Source: Streptomyces sp. WMMC500 (GTDB lineage: Bacteria; Actinomycetota; Actinomycetes; Streptomycetales; Streptomycetaceae). From it: DNA of 64,000 nucleotides. Under the pieces are notes generated by a model. That model saw only the letters and a list, made by a program, of their open reading frames with translations. It did no database searches and had not been told where the DNA came from. The stretch spans positions 4,165,001 through 4,229,000 of the forward strand of contig NZ_CP114905.1 in the NCBI RefSeq assembly GCF_027497195.1, written 5' to 3'. Shown one piece after another: positions 206 through 19,787 of the stretch. The translations under genes and the position numbers were made by a program. Each line of letters starts with the position of its first letter. Positions within the stretch are counted from its first letter, which is position 1.

Positions 206-1267
206 ATGACGGCGTACGGATCGCGGGGCTCGCGGGTACGGATCTTCAGCGGGGTGAAGCCCACCGGGCATCTGACGCTCGGGAACTACCTGGGTGCCGT
301 GCGGCGCTGGGTCGAGGTGGATCAGCATCGGGCCGACGCGCTGTTCTGCGTCGTCGACCTGCACGCCATGACCGTGTCGTACGAGCCCGCGCGGCTGCGG
401 CGGCTGAGTCGGCAGGCCGCGCAACTGCTGCTGGCCGCGGGGCTCGATCCCGCGGTGTGCACCGTCTACGTGCAGAGTCACGTGGACGAGCATGCGCGGC
501 TGTCCTACCTGCTGGAGTGCACGGCCGCGGACGGCGAGATGCGGCGGATGATCCAGTACAAGGAGAAGGCGGCGCGCGAGCGGGCCAGGGGCGGGAGCGT
601 GCGGCTGTCGCTGCTGACGTACCCGGTGCTCATGGCCGCCGACATCCTCGCCTTCGGCTCCGACGAGGTGCCGGTCGGCGACGACCAGGCGCAGCACGTG
701 GAGCTGGCGCGGGATCTGGCGCAGCGGTTCAACCAGCGCTTCGGGCGGGTGTTCACCGTGCCGCGGGTCACCCGGCCGGCGGTCGCCGCGCGGGTCATGA
801 ACCTGCAGGACCCGGCGGCGAAGATGGGCAAGTCCGACGACGGCGCCGCGGCGCGGGCCGGGATCGTGCATCTCCTCGACGAGCCCGACACCGTGCGGCG
901 GAAGGTGATGCGGGCCGTGACGGACAGCCGGGCTGAGGTGACGTACGACCGGGAGGCGCAGCCGGGGGTGGCGAACCTGCTGGAGATCCTGGCCGGGTGC
1001 GGCGGGCGGAAGCCGGCGGAGCTGGCGGGTGAGTACACGTCGTACGGGCGGCTCAAGCGGGACACCGCCGAGGCGGTGGTGGAGATGCTGCGGCCGGTGC
1101 GAGAGCGGCATGCGGAGCTGAGTGCCGATCCGGCGTACGTCGAGGGCGTGCTGGCGCGCGGGGCGGAGCGTGCGCGGGGGATGGCGCGGCCGCGGGTGGA
1201 CGCGGCCTATGCCGCGGCCGGGTTGCTGCCCGCGTTCGGTGCGGTCAGCCCGTCGGGCGGATCGTGA
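206..1267 (+). CDS. trpS: Tryptophanyl-tRNA synthetase, probably the auxiliary TrpRS1 type
   Basis: This class I synthetase charges tRNA-Trp in the cytoplasm. The 353-residue protein has the usual length for a bacterial TrpRS. The HIGH-like motif is TGHLTLGN (20-27) and the KMSKS loop is KMGKS (206-210). The ATG at 206 is chosen because GAGGGA lies just upstream and the HIGH motif then falls at the normal position; the frame is open further upstream but has no homology there. Expression should respond to tryptophan through the attenuator at 22-139. Placing it with the indolmycin-resistant auxiliary isoform rests on the attenuator and on its position near proC and ilvD, not on diagnostic residues. 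The last 23 bases overlap the convergent lipoprotein gene. Confidence 0.95.
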   Translation: MTAYGSRGSRVRIFSGVKPTGHLTLGNYLGAVRRWVEVDQHRADALFCVVDLHAMTVSYEPARLRRLSRQAAQLLLAAGLDPAVCTVYVQSHVDEHARLSYLLECTAADGEMRRMIQYKEKAARERARGGSVRLSLLTYPVLMAADILAFGSDEVPVGDDQAQHVELARDLAQRFNQRFGRVFTVPRVTRPAVAARVMNLQDPAAKMGKSDDGAAARAGIVHLLDEPDTVRRKVMRAVTDSRAEVTYDREAQPGVANLLEILAGCGGRKPAELAGEYTSYGRLKRDTAEAVVEMLRPVRERHAELSADPAYVEGVLARGAERARGMARPRVDAAYAAAGLLPAFGAVSPSGGS

Positions 1268-2063
1268 CGCTGCCGTCCGCGGTGGTGGCCTTGATGCGGT
1301 GCGGGCTGGCGGGGTCGCGCGGGACGGTGACGTCGGTGCTGCCGTCGCGTACGTCGGTGCTGACCCGGTACGGCCCCTTCGGCACCTCCACCGTCACGCT
1401 GCCGTCGCGGGAGTCGGCGGTGACCTCGTCCGGGGTGGCGGCGAAGCCCAGGTGGAGGCTGCCGTCGCCGAGCGCGGCGGTGACGCGGGGGGCGGTGAGG
1501 TCCGTGGCGCGGACGGAGCCGTCGCGGGCGTCGAGGTCGACGGGGCCCGCCGCGCCCTCGATGCTGACGGAGCCGTCGCGGGCCTCGATGTTCAGGGGGC
1601 CGCCGGCGTCGGCTACCGCCACCGCGCCGTCGCCGCTGGTGATGTCGAGGCGGGTGTCGAAGCCGTTCGCCTCGATGCGGCCGTCGCTGCCGTCGATCTC
1701 GACGGCGAGGTGGCGCGGGATCTCGACGCGGTAGCGGGAGTCGCAGCTCACGACGACGCCGCTGCATGTGGTGCGGAAGTGCAGGGTGTCGCCGTCGGCC
1801 GACCACTCGGTGCCGACGTCGCCGTTCCACTTCTCCGCCTCGAACCAGCGGGTGACGTCGACCTCGCCGCCCTCGCGGTCGACCGGCACCAGTTCCACCG
1901 CGGTGTCGTCGGCGTCGATCGTGAGGGTGGTGGCGTCGTCGCCGATGCTGAAGGTGCGGTGCTCGGCCTTGCCGTCGCCGACCGCCTGGGTGCAGGCGGT
2001 CGCGGCGGCGGCGAGGGCCAGTGCGAGCGCGGGGGCGGCGAGGGCCGCGGGCTTCGGCTTCAT
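1245..2063 (-). CDS. DUF4097-type beta-repeat lipoprotein
   Basis: The 272-residue protein begins with a signal peptide that ends in a lipobox-like ATAC, so Cys24 is the likely lipid-modified residue. The rest is a series of short beta-strand repeats rich in DGS and DGSV steps (for example ARDGSVSIEG, SRDGSVTVEV), typical of the DUF4097/adhesin-like right-handed beta-helix. Proteins of this family are surface-exposed and often lie near envelope-stress regulators; no enzymatic function is known. The gene is convergent with trpS and has its own TAGCGT -10 box (2072-2077) 8 nt before the ATG, so it is probably leaderless. It reads the same way as the histidine kinase upstream, but an 88-bp gap and its own promoter argue against a simple operon. 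Confidence 0.8.
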   Translation of the reverse strand: MKPKPAALAAPALALALAAAATACTQAVGDGKAEHRTFSIGDDATTLTIDADDTAVELVPVDREGGEVDVTRWFEAEKWNGDVGTEWSADGDTLHFRTTCSGVVVSCDSRYRVEIPRHLAVEIDGSDGRIEANGFDTRLDITSGDGAVAVADAGGPLNIEARDGSVSIEGAAGPVDLDARDGSVRATDLTAPRVTAALGDGSLHLGFAATPDEVTADSRDGSVTVEVPKGPYRVSTDVRDGSTDVTVPRDPASPHRIKATTADGSVTIRPTG

Positions 2064-2151: not shown

Positions 2152-4002
2152 CTACGGGTCGGCGTCGACCTTGTCCTTGTGGGAGAGGCGGCCGTCGGTG
2201 AAGCAGAGGCGGTAGGACGGGTCGAGGGTGAAGGGGGTGGTGCGGTAGATGAGGCAGTCGTCGGTGCCGGGCGGGTCGGCGGGGGCGGCCGGGGGGCGGG
2301 TGTTGACGTCGGCCTCGTAGGCGGGGAGGCGGCGTTCGACGGTGTCGCGGGACTGGCCTATGCGCAGCGTGTCGTAGGTGTCGGCGTCGAGGACGGAGCG
2401 GTGGGAGGTGTAGAGGTCGACGCCGAAGAGGAGCACGCCGAGGACGACGGTGCCGACGACCGGGATCCAGATCGCGTCGAGGATGCCGCGGCGCACACGG
2501 CGGCGCGCGGCGGCCAGTTCGCGCCGGGCGGCGTACTCGCGCGGTGGGGCGGGGGCGGCGCCGGGGGCGAGGGGGAGGCGGGCGGTGACGGCGAAGCCGC
2601 CGTCCACAGGCTGTGCACGGAGGGTGCCGCCGGCGAGGCGGACGCGCTCGTCGAGGCCGACGAGGCCGTAGCCGCCGGAGGTTTGCTGCGCTTTGGCCTC
2701 TTTCGCGTCTTTCAGTGTGGTCCGTGGCGGTGGGCCGTTGACGACGGTGACCTCGGCGTGGTCGGCGTCGTGGCGGAGGCGCACGGTCACCGGGGCGCCG
2801 GGGGCGTGCTTGGCGGCGTTGGTCAGGGCCTCCTGGACGACGCGGTGGATCGCCCGGTCGGCCGCCGGCGGGAGGGGGGTGGGGGCGGGTGCCGGTGTTG
2901 TCGGCGCCGGCGTTGCCGGGGCCGGGTCTCCCCGGCCGCCCGGGGGTTGGTCTTCGGCCGTGCGCGCGTCACGTTCCGCGTCGCGGGCGCGGTCCTCGTC
3001 CCGTACGAGCCGCACCCGCATGCCCGACGCCGCCGCCCGCCTGACCAGCTCCTCCACCCTGTCGTCCGCCGGGTGCACCGGCGCGCCCTCGTCGTCCTCG
3101 CGCAGCACGCCGATCACCTCCCGCAGCTTCTCGGTGGCCGTCGCCGCGGCCTCGCGCAGTTCGGCGGCCTCCTTGCGGGCGGCGGCGTCGAGGCCCGGGG
3201 CGACCTGGAGGGCTGCGGCGCGTACGGCGATGAGGGTCAGTTCGTGGCCGAGCGAGTCGTGCATGTCCCCGGCGATGCGGGAGCGCTCGCGCAGCCGGGT
3301 GCGGTCGGCGGTCAGCTCCTGCTCGCGCTCCAGCCGCTCGGCCAGCTCCCAGCCGGTGCCGACGAGCGCGGCGTGCTGGCGCGCGTACCGGCCGAGCAGC
3401 CACGGGAGCACCATCGCGAAGAGCACGGTGAGCACCAGCGTCGCCCAGCCGGAGAACGTCGCGCCGGGGACGGTGCGGGCGAGCACGAGGCCGGCCGCGG
3501 CGACCGCGCCGAAGAGCAGGAGTGCGCTGCGCGGGCGGTCCGTGCGGCGGCCGAGGAGGAAGGAGAGGGCGACCTGGGCGAGGACGAACTGGTTGGTGAA
3601 CAGCTCGGGCGTCGCGGACAGCGCCAGCGCGGCGGGGACCGCCGCGGCGAGCAGGGGGCGGTGGCGGCCGACGGCGACGGCCAGGGCGAGGAGGGGGACG
3701 GCGGCGGCGCGAATCCAGCTCAGGTCGAGGCCGGCCACCTGCTCGGCGCCGGGGAGACCGCCGGCGGTGACGACGGGGAGGGAGAGGACCAGCCAGAGGA
3801 GGAGGTCGGCGGCCCGTTCGCTGCGCAGGACGCGGCGGAGGGTCCCGGTCGTGGTGGGGCGACGCCGCCCGGGCGGTTCGCGGTCGTCGTGGGGGCGGTC
3901 GTCCGCGGGGCGGTCCTCGTCGGGGCGGTCGGGGCGGCCGGGGCGGAGCCGGTCGGGCAGGGTGCGACGCGGGGTGCCGGGCAGCCGGTCGGTGCCGGTC
4001 AT
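2152..4002 (-). CDS. NarL-type sensor histidine kinase with C-terminal extracytoplasmic domain
   Basis: The order in the 616 residues is: a charged, disordered N-terminus (1-60), about five or six membrane segments (65-205), a dimerisation/phosphoacceptor helix with DMHDSLGHE (H248), a Pro/Ala-rich linker, and a HATPase domain whose G-box is YGLVGLDERV. After the ATPase comes something unusual: one more membrane segment (about 511-530) and an outside domain of about 85 residues with two cysteines, resembling the BamE/SmpA fold (LRIGQSRDTVERRL, then YRLCFTDGRL). The ATG at 4002 lies 6 nt after TACCGT (4014-4009), so the mRNA is probably leaderless. It is divergent from dedA and shares its operator. 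The partner is probably the response regulator at 4861-5598. Confidence 0.85.
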   Translation of the reverse strand: MTGTDRLPGTPRRTLPDRLRPGRPDRPDEDRPADDRPHDDREPPGRRRPTTTGTLRRVLRSERAADLLLWLVLSLPVVTAGGLPGAEQVAGLDLSWIRAAAVPLLALAVAVGRHRPLLAAAVPAALALSATPELFTNQFVLAQVALSFLLGRRTDRPRSALLLFGAVAAAGLVLARTVPGATFSGWATLVLTVLFAMVLPWLLGRYARQHAALVGTGWELAERLEREQELTADRTRLRERSRIAGDMHDSLGHELTLIAVRAAALQVAPGLDAAARKEAAELREAAATATEKLREVIGVLREDDEGAPVHPADDRVEELVRRAAASGMRVRLVRDEDRARDAERDARTAEDQPPGGRGDPAPATPAPTTPAPAPTPLPPAADRAIHRVVQEALTNAAKHAPGAPVTVRLRHDADHAEVTVVNGPPPRTTLKDAKEAKAQQTSGGYGLVGLDERVRLAGGTLRAQPVDGGFAVTARLPLAPGAAPAPPREYAARRELAAARRRVRRGILDAIWIPVVGTVVLGVLLFGVDLYTSHRSVLDADTYDTLRIGQSRDTVERRLPAYEADVNTRPPAAPADPPGTDDCLIYRTTPFTLDPSYRLCFTDGRLSHKDKVDADP

Positions 4003-4008
4003 GCGGCC

Positions 4009-4104
4009 ACGGTACGGCGGGCGGGGGCGGCCGGGCACCTGACGAAAGTCAGGGGGAGGTGCTGACTTCCGTGCGCGGTGGCGCGCGGGCCGCGTTCCTA
4101 GCGT
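4009..4104. promoter_or_regulatory. Divergent promoter with CTGAC-N4-GTCAG operator
   Basis: A perfect inverted repeat CTGACGAAAGTCAG lies at 4039-4052, and a degenerate copy CTGACTTCCGTGCG follows at 4062-4075, exactly 23 bp further on. Leftward, TACCGT (4014-4009) is the -10 of the histidine kinase, 38 nt from the box. Rightward, TAGCGT (4099-4104) is the -10 of dedA, 37 nt from the degenerate box and 7 nt before its ATG. The same pair of boxes with the same 23-bp spacing precedes the PAP2 gene at 19721-19757. The position, just upstream of the -35 region, suits an activator such as a NarL-type response regulator. Confidence 0.8.
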
Positions 4105-4111
4105 GAGCGGC

Positions 4112-4927
4112 ATGAACGACGCGATCATTCACGCCGTCGAGGGCGTGGTCAGCACCCCGTGGGTGTACGTGGCGCTCTTCGGCATCGCCGCGCTGGACGG
4201 CTTCTTCCCGGTGGTGCCGAGCGAGACGCTGGTGATCACCCTGGGGGTGTTCGCCGCGGCCGACGGGCAGCCGGACGCGGTGGCGGTGGCGGTGGTGGCG
4301 GCCCTGGGGGCGCTGACCGGGGATCACCTCTCCTATCTCATCGGCCGCCGCGCCGGGCCGCGGGTCTTCGAGCGGCTGCGGCCGGGGAGCCGGGCGCAGC
4401 GGGCGTACGAGCGGGTGGGGCGGATGCTGGCGGAGCGGGGCGGGCTCGTGCTCGTCGTGGCGCGCTACATCCCGGGCGGCCGGACGGCGGCGACGCTCAC
4501 GACGGGGGCGACGGGCTTTCCGCGCCGGACGTTCACCCGGTACGCGGTCCTCGCGGCGGTGACCTGGGCGGCGTACGGGACGACGCTCGGCTACGCGGGC
4601 GGCGCGGCCTTCGAGGACGAGCCGCTGCGGGGGGTGGCGCTGGGGCTGGGGCTCGCGTTCGGGATCACGCTGCTGCACGAGGGCGTGCGGGCCCTGCGGC
4701 TCCGGCGCGCGCGTGGCGCCGGAGCGGCGCACCCGGCGGGTGGCGGACCGGGCGGTGCGGATGCGGCCTTCACGACGAGCGGGTCCGCGGACCGGTCGGA
4801 GGCTGCCGGGGGTCGGCCCGGAGCGGCGCGGGGACCGGAGGCGGTCGGCGCCGAGGGTGCCTACCGCGAGCCCTGTCCCGGAGCGGGCGACCCGTCCCCT
4901 CCGGCGTCCACCAAGCCCGCCTCGTAG
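4112..4927 (+). CDS. DedA-family membrane protein
   Basis: This is a 271-residue polytopic membrane protein of the DedA/SNARE-associated family. Visible family features are FFPVVPSE (31-38, re-entrant region), ALTGDHLSYLIGR (67-79, with the conserved GD) and ARYIPGGRT (117-125, with both essential Arg). DedA proteins translocate lipids; several, such as UptA, return undecaprenyl phosphate to the inner leaflet. The C-terminal 50 residues are a Gly/Ala/Pro tail without recognisable fold. The ATG at 4112 is preferred because TAGCGT lies 7 nt before it, giving a leaderless mRNA; a GTG at 4103 would overlap the -10 box. It is divergent from the histidine kinase, shares its operator, and overlaps the response regulator tail to tail by 67 bp. 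Confidence 0.9.
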   Translation: MNDAIIHAVEGVVSTPWVYVALFGIAALDGFFPVVPSETLVITLGVFAAADGQPDAVAVAVVAALGALTGDHLSYLIGRRAGPRVFERLRPGSRAQRAYERVGRMLAERGGLVLVVARYIPGGRTAATLTTGATGFPRRTFTRYAVLAAVTWAAYGTTLGYAGGAAFEDEPLRGVALGLGLAFGITLLHEGVRALRLRRARGAGAAHPAGGGPGGADAAFTTSGSADRSEAAGGRPGAARGPEAVGAEGAYREPCPGAGDPSPPASTKPAS

Positions 4928-5598
4928 GCGAGGATGGCGGCCTGGACCCGGTTCCTCAGCTCCAGGCGCGCCAGCACCTGGCTGACGTACGCCTTCACCG
5001 TGCCCTCCACCAGGTGCAGCCGCCCGGCTATCTCCGCGTTCGACAGTCCGGCGCCGACGAGCGCCAGCACCTCGCGCTCCCGCGGGGTGAGCGCCGCGGC
5101 GCGCTCGCGCGCCTCCTTCTCGCGGGTCAGCCGGCCGCCGCTGACCCGCTGGATGACGCGGCGGGCGACGTGGGGCGAGAGGTACGAGGCGCCGGAGGCG
5201 GCGGCGCGGACGGCGGCCATCAGCTCGTACGGATCACCGGACTTGAGCAGGAAGCCGGCGGCGCCGCTGTCGAGGGCGCCGGCGATGTACTCGTCCTCGG
5301 AGAACGTCGTGAGCATCACGACCGCCGTGCCCGGCGCGGCCCGGCGCAGCTCGGCGGCGGCGCCCAGGCCGTCGAGCACCGGCATGCGGATGTCGAGCAG
5401 GGCGACGTCGGGGCGGTGCCGCCGGGTCAGCTCGACGGCCTCGCGGCCGTCGCCGGCCTCGGCGACGACCTCGATGTCGGCCGCGGCGGCGAGGATGGCC
5501 CGGACGCCGCCGCGGACCATGGCCTCGTCGTCGGCGAGCAGGACCCGGATCGCGCCGGGCCCGGAAGCGGTCGGCCCGGGCGGCGGCTGCGCTGTCAT
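4861..5598 (-). CDS. NarL/FixJ-family response regulator
   Basis: A 245-residue two-domain DNA-binding regulator. The receiver domain (about 17-135) has the acidic pair D23-D24, the phosphoacceptor D69 in ALLDIRMP, a conserved Thr and LLKSG with the conserved Lys. The C-terminal LuxR-type HTH (about 175-235) contains LTPREREVLALVGAGLSNAE. It starts 12 bp after the proC stop, so it may be read from the proC transcript; its 3' end overlaps dedA. The only histidine kinase of the matching class in the window lies just beyond dedA, so the two are taken as a pair split by dedA. It is the obvious candidate to bind the CTGAC-N4-GTCAG boxes. That link is inferred. Confidence 0.9.
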   Translation of the reverse strand: MTAQPPPGPTASGPGAIRVLLADDEAMVRGGVRAILAAAADIEVVAEAGDGREAVELTRRHRPDVALLDIRMPVLDGLGAAAELRRAAPGTAVVMLTTFSEDEYIAGALDSGAAGFLLKSGDPYELMAAVRAAASGASYLSPHVARRVIQRVSGGRLTREKEARERAAALTPREREVLALVGAGLSNAEIAGRLHLVEGTVKAYVSQVLARLELRNRVQAAILAYEAGLVDAGGDGSPAPGQGSR

Positions 5599-18793: not shown

Positions 18794-19666
18794 TTACGCC
18801 TTCTCCAGCACGAACGGCGCCGTGGCCGTCCCGAAGCCGTCCGCGCTGACCTCGGCCTCGTAGCTCCCCGCCCCGGCCGTCGACGCCTTCGGCGTCGCGC
18901 AGCCCGGCTCGCTCGCCCGCATGTCCCACTCGTACGTCCGTGAGACCTCGCTGCCCGCCGGCACCGCCAGCAGGATCGGGTCGGTCGTCCACGGGCAGTC
19001 GTCCGACGCCCACCAGCGGCTCTCGCCGCCGGACGCCGTCGAGATCGTGAGCACCGCCGAGGTCGGCGAGAAGTCCAGCTTGCAGTCCTCGCCGCCGGAG
19101 TTGACGGCGGTCAGCTCGAACACCGGCCGCTCCCCCGGCGCGTACGAGCGCTCCTCGCTGCGCAGCGTCAGCTCCACGTCGCCCGCGTCGCACGCGGCCA
19201 TGGAGGAGCCGGCCGGCACGCCGTCCGAGCCCACGCCGAAGCCGCCCGCGGAGCCGGAACCGCCGTCGGAGCCGCCACCGCCCGCGGAGCCGCCGTCCTC
19301 GCCGTCGCCGGAGCCGCCGCCGTCGGAGGTGCCGCCGTCGGAGCCGCCGGAGCCGTCCGAGCCCTCGGAGTCGCCCGTGCCGCCGCCGTTCTCGTCGTCG
19401 GAGCCGCCGGAGCCCGCGGAGCCGCCGCCGTCCTCGTCGCGACCCCCGGGCGGGTTGTCGATCACCGACGAGTCGTCCGTCGGTCCCGGAGTGATCGACT
19501 CCGCCGGGTTCTTGCCCTCGTCGGCGGTGTTCTCGCTACCGCCCCCGAGGTTGATGACCAGGACGGCGAAGATCGCGAGCACGGCGAGCAGGCCGAGCAG
19601 AACCGCCCGGCGCCGCCAGTAGATGGCGGACGGCAGCGGACCGACAGGTCGGCGGAAAGATCCCAC
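18794..19666 (-). CDS. Membrane-anchored secreted protein with BsuPI-like domain
   Basis: A 290-residue protein with one N-terminal membrane segment (21-40), a long Gly/Ser/Asp-rich linker (about 75-160, many GGSDGG steps) and a C-terminal domain of about 125 residues with beta-sandwich features: YAPGERPVFELTAVNSGG and an aromatic EWDM near the end, resembling the BsuPI/Ig-like fold, with four or five cysteines. The domain would lie outside the membrane. The GTG is 6 nt after TAAGGT (19678-19673), so the mRNA is probably leaderless. It is divergent from the PAP2 gene. Function unknown; BsuPI resemblance is by eye. Confidence 0.75.
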   Translation of the reverse strand: MGSFRRPVGPLPSAIYWRRRAVLLGLLAVLAIFAVLVINLGGGSENTADEGKNPAESITPGPTDDSSVIDNPPGGRDEDGGGSAGSGGSDDENGGGTGDSEGSDGSGGSDGGTSDGGGSGDGEDGGSAGGGGSDGGSGSAGGFGVGSDGVPAGSSMAACDAGDVELTLRSEERSYAPGERPVFELTAVNSGGEDCKLDFSPTSAVLTISTASGGESRWWASDDCPWTTDPILLAVPAGSEVSRTYEWDMRASEPGCATPKASTAGAGSYEAEVSADGFGTATAPFVLEKA

Positions 19667-19720: not shown

Positions 19721-19787
19721 CTGACTTTCGTCAGGGGAGCGTACTGACTTTCGCCGGAAGTGGTGAACCGAACACGCTTCGTACCGT
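19721..19787 (+). promoter_or_regulatory. PAP2 promoter with CTGAC-N4-GTCAG boxes
   Basis: CTGACTTTCGTCAG (19721-19734, perfect inverted repeat) is followed 23 bp later by the near copy CTGACTTTCGCCGG (19744-19757). TACCGT (19782-19787) is the -10, 38 nt from the second box and 6 nt before the ATG. Box sequence, spacing and distance to the -10 match the histidine kinase/dedA control region at 4009-4104. Confidence 0.8.

Follow-up and report, generated by a model that had tools for sequence, protein, structure and literature searches.

Among described signalling systems, those closest to the one considered here are VraSR and LiaSR of the Firmicutes, VraR being a cell-wall-stress regulator. In Streptomyces, envelope stress signalling is served by CseBC-SigE, VanRS and MacRS; CseB and VanR are OmpR-type regulators, and the boxes and targets of these Streptomyces circuits are other than those reported below. 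A PAP2 phosphatase gene tied to a two-component pair is found at S. coelicolor SCO6353-6357, where, according to the accessible part of one report, Lpp-gamma lies in an operon with a histidine kinase (HK) and a response regulator (RR) and is reportedly not conserved outside S. coelicolor and S. avermitilis (PMC3599759); the available part of a second lists this RR in the OmpR family (PMC9739842). The portion at hand of a further study records that bacitracin induces many S. coelicolor two-component genes, and that the bacitracin resistance mechanism of this organism may be novel (PMC3123327). As for the lipid carrier itself, its flippases were named only recently, going by extracts of PMC11474028, which cites 2023 work, and it has been suggested that their redundancy reflects a specialisation in regulation (PMC10127716, in the passages available).

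Here we analyze a two-component pair encoded in a 64,000-nucleotide stretch of Streptomyces sp. WMMC500 DNA (the window; Table 1), whose promoter box recurs before a dedA gene and a distant PAP2 gene. Like VraSR/LiaSR it combines a NarL-type RR, for which VraR is the best PDB sequence match (E 2.2e-41), with a HisKA_3 kinase and envelope-linked targets, and shares with them self-regulation, implied here by the box before the HK gene. In contrast to those systems, the Streptomyces HK has an extra C-terminal domain after the ATPase domain and does not reach the cut-off of the NCBIfam LiaS model (21 bits vs 450), and the output consists of lipid-carrier genes. Of the 8 window proteins scanned none was recognized as a LiaF/VraT partner; the gene after the HK encodes a DUF4097 protein. 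The MacS model gave a weak match, and that only for the relative L142. The link of a PAP2 gene to a two-component pair is common to this system and SCO6353-6357, the RR being OmpR-type there and NarL-type here. The original prediction knew of no described system of this make-up, and this agrees with open-access PMC full text, a body of literature that leaves most subscription papers outside its coverage, in which we found no such description.

Table 1. Features of the kinase-dedA region and the PAP2 region, in window coordinates
Feature	Position	Strand	Remarks
Sensor histidine kinase, 616 aa	2152..4002	-	HisKA_3, HATPase_c; N-terminal helices taken as membrane spans
HK C-terminal module, residues about 495-616	2155..2520	-	Long helix and alpha-alpha-beta-beta-beta domain
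Predicted minus 10 TACCGT, HK gene	4009..4014	-	38 nt from box start; 6 nt to ATG 4002
Operator box CTGACTTTCGTCAG	4039..4052	-	Proximal for HK promoter, distal for dedA promoter
Second box CTGACTTCCGTGCG	4062..4075	+	Proximal for dedA; 23 bp from first box
Predicted minus 10 TAGCGT, dedA	4099..4104	+	37 nt from box start; 7 nt to ATG 4112
DedA-family membrane protein (VTT_dom)	4112..4927	+	Invariant D29, E38, R118, R124
NarL/LuxR-type response regulator	4861..5598	-	Response_reg and GerE domains; 11 nt after proC
Distal box CTGACTTTCGTCAG, PAP2 promoter	19721..19734	+	
Proximal box CTGACTTTCGCCGG, PAP2 promoter	19744..19757	+	
Predicted minus 10 TACCGT, PAP2	19782..19787	+	38 nt from box start; 6 nt to ATG 19794
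PAP2-family lipid phosphatase, 192 aa	19794..20372	+	Catalytic motifs intact; beside disA

On the minus strand the genes run in the order proC, RR, HK, and dedA lies on the plus strand between the latter two; it has a promoter region in common with the HK and overlaps the RR gene at the latter's end. The C-terminal domain of the HK, which is preceded by a helix after HATPase_c and is taken as extracytoplasmic, contains two invariant cysteines and is predicted to adopt a BLIP/BamE-like fold. This domain is the natural candidate for the sensor. By the C-terminal part, the nearest kinases include those of S. aculeolatus and of a MAR4 isolate. The DUF4097 "toastrack" protein (1245-2063, minus strand) is encoded 88 nt after the HK on the same strand, and is also present in the relative G195 (91% identical). 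As toastrack domains have a connection with envelope stress of the LiaF/Psp kind, this protein may belong to the circuit.

Direct reading of the sequence, checked by script, bore out the predicted geometry: there are two boxes 23 bp apart both at 4009-4104 and at 19721-19757, and the distances from box to minus 10 at the three promoters are those originally given (Table 1). The short gaps between the minus 10 elements and the start codons are likewise compatible with the leaderless mRNAs that had been proposed for HK, dedA and PAP2. The offset seen at the HK promoter is also found in relatives. The box is centered near -43, immediately ahead of the minus 35 region, and by eye the minus 35 regions have no evident consensus. 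Since it lies upstream of the minus 10, the box is not transcribed from these promoters. No box with up to one mismatch precedes RR or proC in the window, so that the RR gene probably follows proC. Divergent from PAP2 is a gene for a Ser/Gly-rich hypothetical protein (18794-19666, minus strand), which stands beside disA in many Streptomyces loci; its likely minus 10 is 56 nt from the nearer box by hand count, which is not the activator distance.

The exact 14-mer CTGACTTTCGTCAG occurs at just two places in the 8.61-Mb genome, both in the window (between HK and dedA, and before PAP2), against a chance expectation of about 0.01 per genome (composition estimate by hand); random scatter through the genome, which the original prediction had named as evidence against itself, is thus not the behavior of this 14-mer. 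The genome-wide search for the paired pattern that it had proposed returned only the HK-dedA and PAP2 sites at zero mismatches, and with two mismatches two further places (control: one match). The loose form CTGAC-N4-GTCAG was set aside as evidence, as its 12 genome places are near the control (6 for the reversed pattern); in the window, allowing one mismatch, it has 5 matches vs 2.55 expected, a number reached by 13 of 100 shuffles. Also rejected as a conserved element was the strict pair GTCAG-N9-CTGACTTNCG, present in 4 of 150 family genomes (own included) with 10 reversed-control matches. Judged from sequence, the conserved element is one box together with its distance to the minus 10, rather than the strict pair. 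Allowing one mismatch, the single box has 54 matches in the own genome vs 11 for the reversed control, and 30 of the 54 come with a locus; among 31 matches checked (these 30 and one other), a TANNNT 37-38 nt away was seen at the HK site alone.

Across 246 genomes of the genus the exact 14-mer was recovered at 17 places in 15 genomes (2 reversed-control matches), and 12 of the 17, the two own places counted, adjoin either PAP2 genes (7) or homologues of the HK (5). The other five (L074, L076, L078, L082 and L083) adjoin neither and are possibly chance occurrences or sites of other regulators. At L072 (G308, 1058-1071) an exact box separates an HK homologue from a divergent gene for an ABC transporter ATPase, which is possibly a further output of a related system.

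A matrix was built from 30 genus HK boxes. In the genus and class set, 25 of 56 PAP2 upstream regions passed with this matrix vs none of 31 disA controls. HK upstream regions passed in 58 of 90 cases with the training boxes included, a count that, like the genus spacing count, is partly circular because those boxes were picked under the spacing constraint; in 16 of the 32 HK genes without a strong box, the RR gene directly precedes the HK. With regard to spacing, the distance between box start and the first T of TANNNT is 37 or 38 nt in 78 of 198 distinct contexts, in which 19 further TANNNT are spread over 45 other offsets, nine of them at 60, the distal-box position. Loci outside Streptomyces and Kitasatospora provided out-of-sample tests of HK upstream regions and of TANNNT spacing. 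There, 21 of 42 HK upstream regions reached the 99th percentile of 1632 control windows, as did 3 of 8 for PAP2 and 2 of 9 for DedA (windows partly misplaced), and 51 contexts gave 14 TANNNT at 37/38 nt and 15 over 54 other offsets (8 at the distal-box position, 60/61, and 7 elsewhere). Many relatives have one clear box at the HK promoter; PAP2 and dedA promoters have two.

To describe the gene contexts within the genus we used 60 loci (L125-L184) from the RR search list, picked by RR similarity regardless of neighbors; the rates in L085-L124 are biased, since these were chosen partly for an RR beside PAP2. PAP2 lies within 1.5 kb of the RR in 31 of the 60, and PAP2, DedA or MurJ within 6 kb in 36, leaving 24 with no such neighbor. 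RR orthologues (about 70-77% identity) are often convergent to the PAP2 gene beside disA, with the HK behind, and many Streptomyces PAP2 orthologues have a box pair, often CTGTCTTTCGTCAG followed 23 bp on by GACGATCGC. PAP2-RR-HK next to disA is taken as the ancestral module. In G000, G195 (window clade), G196, G184, G153 and G163 the PAP2 box is retained while RR and HK are elsewhere; among genomes with a non-adjacent RR, 6 of 7 PAP2 promoters score at least 15.8, the exception being G171. When the promoters of the 30 best PAP2 matches are compared, 15 score at least 13.8 by the matrix, and these are found in 12 of 17 genomes with the RR vs 3 of 13 without (Fisher p 0.013); the median scores are 19.4 and 6.4 respectively (Mann-Whitney p 0.002), the p-values serving as a guide only because the genomes are related. 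An RR was counted as present at E<=1e-76, together with that of G159 (1.4e-74, beside PAP2), and that of G186 (2.4e-72) as absent. The promoters above threshold without a detected RR are those of G206 (20.3), G151 (14.4) and G198 (an 82% complete assembly).

Two further arrangements were also noted. G464 contains a decayed locus (L126, 4412-6934) with an RR, a dedA (72% like that of the window) and only the C-terminal end of the HK, and retains a PAP2-RR-HK module as well (L127). A second, divergent PAP2-RR-HK family (L101-L111 except L104, and L177-L184), mostly away from disA, has variant boxes such as CCGACGTTCGTCGG at 37-38 nt spacing, those before PAP2 being mostly missed by the matrix.

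A scan with an RR alignment, of which the best 80 named loci among the matches listed were examined, extended these associations to other actinomycetes. In Planobispora, Streptosporangium and Planotetraspora, dedA and HK-RR are divergent. Downstream of HK-RR lie PAP2 and dedA (three Actinomadura loci), PAP2 (Catenuloplanes, Microtetraspora, Saccharopolyspora, Nocardia and a fourth Actinomadura) or dedA (three Kribbella loci). In these Kribbella loci (L219, L239 and L245) dedA lacks its own box, is 2.5-4 kb from the RR and apparently comes after other genes. Among these best 80 loci, PAP2 and/or dedA occur within 6 kb of RRs scoring at least 230 bits in 14 of 46 loci outside Streptomyces/Kitasatospora and 11 of 19 inside, vs none of the 15 loci with lower-scoring RRs (2 outside, 13 inside), the 230-bit split having been chosen after the scores were seen. 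Of nine loci tested for a box before dedA, six have one (L210, L212, L214, L236, L237 and L251; matrix scores 11.4-22.6), accompanied by eye by a weaker second box 23 bp on; no recognizable box precedes dedA in the remaining three, those of Kribbella, nor PAP2 in the four Actinomadura loci tested or in L246. Leaderless dedA transcripts are not universal, as the dedA promoters of Planobispora and Streptosporangium lie well upstream (by eye). The proposed link between HK, dedA and PAP2 is thereby extended, relatives of the RR-HK pair adjoining PAP2, dedA or both in many actinomycetes with the position of the box kept.

The predicted activities of the output genes point to the lipid carrier. The R118 and R124 residues of the DedA protein, six apart, are invariant in 10 of 10 aligned DedA sequences, and this spacing, together with the VTT domain, is common to it and the UptA-type DedA flippases. 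In the parts available of the relevant studies, the arginine pair in the second re-entrant helix of carrier flippases is given as R112 and R118 in UptA and R130 and R136 in YghB (PMC10127716; PMC11474028); our match to UptA is by spacing rather than alignment. In YghB the first re-entrant helix has two acidic residues, Glu39 and Asp51; in the window protein D29 and E38 are invariant too, but 9 apart and in the opposite order, as judged without alignment to YghB. UptA is among the NCBIfam matches of the DedA protein, at 33 bits vs a cut-off of 250 (second UptA model: 19 vs 300), and we consider it a candidate undecaprenyl-phosphate flippase. PAP2 enzymes are marked by the motifs K-x6-RP, PSNH and SR-x5-H-x3-D. 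In the window protein (Pfam PAP2, 5.1e-20) the full motif set is present, K70, R77P78, P101-H104, R137, H143 and D147 being invariant in 9 of 9 sequences; its best NCBIfam model is the SepP undecaprenyl-diphosphatase (56 bits vs a cut-off of 250), which makes it a candidate undecaprenyl-diphosphate phosphatase. Hence the curated cut-offs for UptA and undecaprenyl-diphosphatase are reached by neither protein. The lipid-carrier theme proposed for DedA and PAP2 gains a third member in MurJ (2 genomes). In G171 (L116, 4956-6644) a murJ gene lies antisense between RR and HK, in the slot of the window dedA, with a promoter that by eye consists of CTGGCTTTCGCCCC, 24 nt and TACCGT, and paired boxes 23 bp apart; the arrangement in G439 (L148, 5339-7006) is the same, with a weaker box on the MurJ side. 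The L116 protein passes the TIGR01695 cut-off (329 bits vs 235.55), and the L148 protein is 90% identical to it.

A box with no role in regulation, arising as a palindrome by chance or serving as an RNA hairpin, would fit the loose CTGAC-N4-GTCAG count, which is just about twice the control; the position of the box outside the transcripts and the recurrence of its spacing and gene association across families contradict this, leaving it exceedingly improbable. The box could instead be owned by another, unlinked regulator, e.g. a NarL-type paralogue, with the linked RR just a neighbor: the genome contains 18 NarL-type RR genes at E<=1e-50 (RR itself counted; 23 scored), the PAP2 box is still present in 3 of 13 genomes without the RR, and there are exact boxes with other HK or RR genes nearby (e.g. 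L072 and L076). We think this improbable given that, across families, the box precedes the HK gene that is paired with this RR, that the PAP2 box is rarer where the RR is missing, and that the 15 lower-scoring RR loci lack the PAP2/dedA neighborhood.

Were the RR a repressor switching off HK, dedA and PAP2, the geometry would also be compatible, as binding beside the minus 35 can repress. A box centered near -43 is, however, usual for activators of the NarL-type family, and the lack of an evident minus 35 consensus also speaks against repression, to which we give little credence. A real regulon might alternatively serve phospholipid or general envelope stress, the PAP2 protein being a phosphatidate or PGP phosphatase and DedA acting on another lipid. 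Both families are broad, with other lipids also as substrates, the curated undecaprenyl cut-offs are not reached, and Streptomyces Lpp PAP2 enzymes act on phosphatidate, according to the accessible text of PMC3599759. Against this stand SepP as best model for PAP2 and UptA among the DedA matches, the retained arginine pair of carrier flippases, and the occurrence in the same slot of MurJ, of the lipid II flippase family; we regard the phospholipid reading as unlikely, if deserving of serious thought.

The comparisons strongly support the two-component pair, dedA and PAP2 as one predicted regulon; what they bring out across genomes is an operator of conserved spacing that is linked to the RR-HK family and to PAP2, DedA and MurJ (the last in two genomes). 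We consider it probable that this VraR/NarL-type system activates its own kinase together with lipid-carrier genes, namely those of a putative undecaprenyl-PP phosphatase, an undecaprenyl-P flippase and sometimes a lipid II flippase. RR binding, activation as against repression, the enzyme activities, and the signal, with sensing of the carrier, are parts that we infer. Upon activation of the kinase, the phosphorylated RR would bind as dimers to one or two boxes and, placed near -43, touch the polymerase, thereby activating leaderless transcription of the kinase itself, of dedA and of the PAP2 gene 15 kb away; self-activation of the HK would constitute positive feedback. The PAP2 enzyme would convert undecaprenyl-PP to undecaprenyl-P outside the membrane and DedA would return the latter to the inside, which suggests that the system raises recycling of the lipid carrier when the cell-wall lipid cycle is disturbed. 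More PAP2 and DedA would mean faster return of the carrier, and more MurJ faster export of lipid II. It is a tentative extension, which we rate at somewhat below even chances, that actinomycetes possess a dedicated undecaprenyl-carrier homeostasis system with a class of kinases that would monitor the lipid cycle by means of the BLIP/BamE-like extracytoplasmic C-terminal domain, a VraR-like RR and an output slot filled interchangeably by PAP2, DedA or MurJ.

The pool of undecaprenyl phosphate is small, and how bacteria sense and adjust it is poorly understood. In the arrangement described here, a kinase is connected with genes for a predicted phosphatase, a predicted flippase and at times a lipid II flippase through a single operator of constant promoter geometry, and this link spans several actinomycete families, antibiotic producers among them. 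Its target genes, operator and sensor domain are each predicted and testable, so that a dedicated lipid-carrier circuit can be tested directly; such a circuit could explain intrinsic responses to carrier-binding antibiotics.
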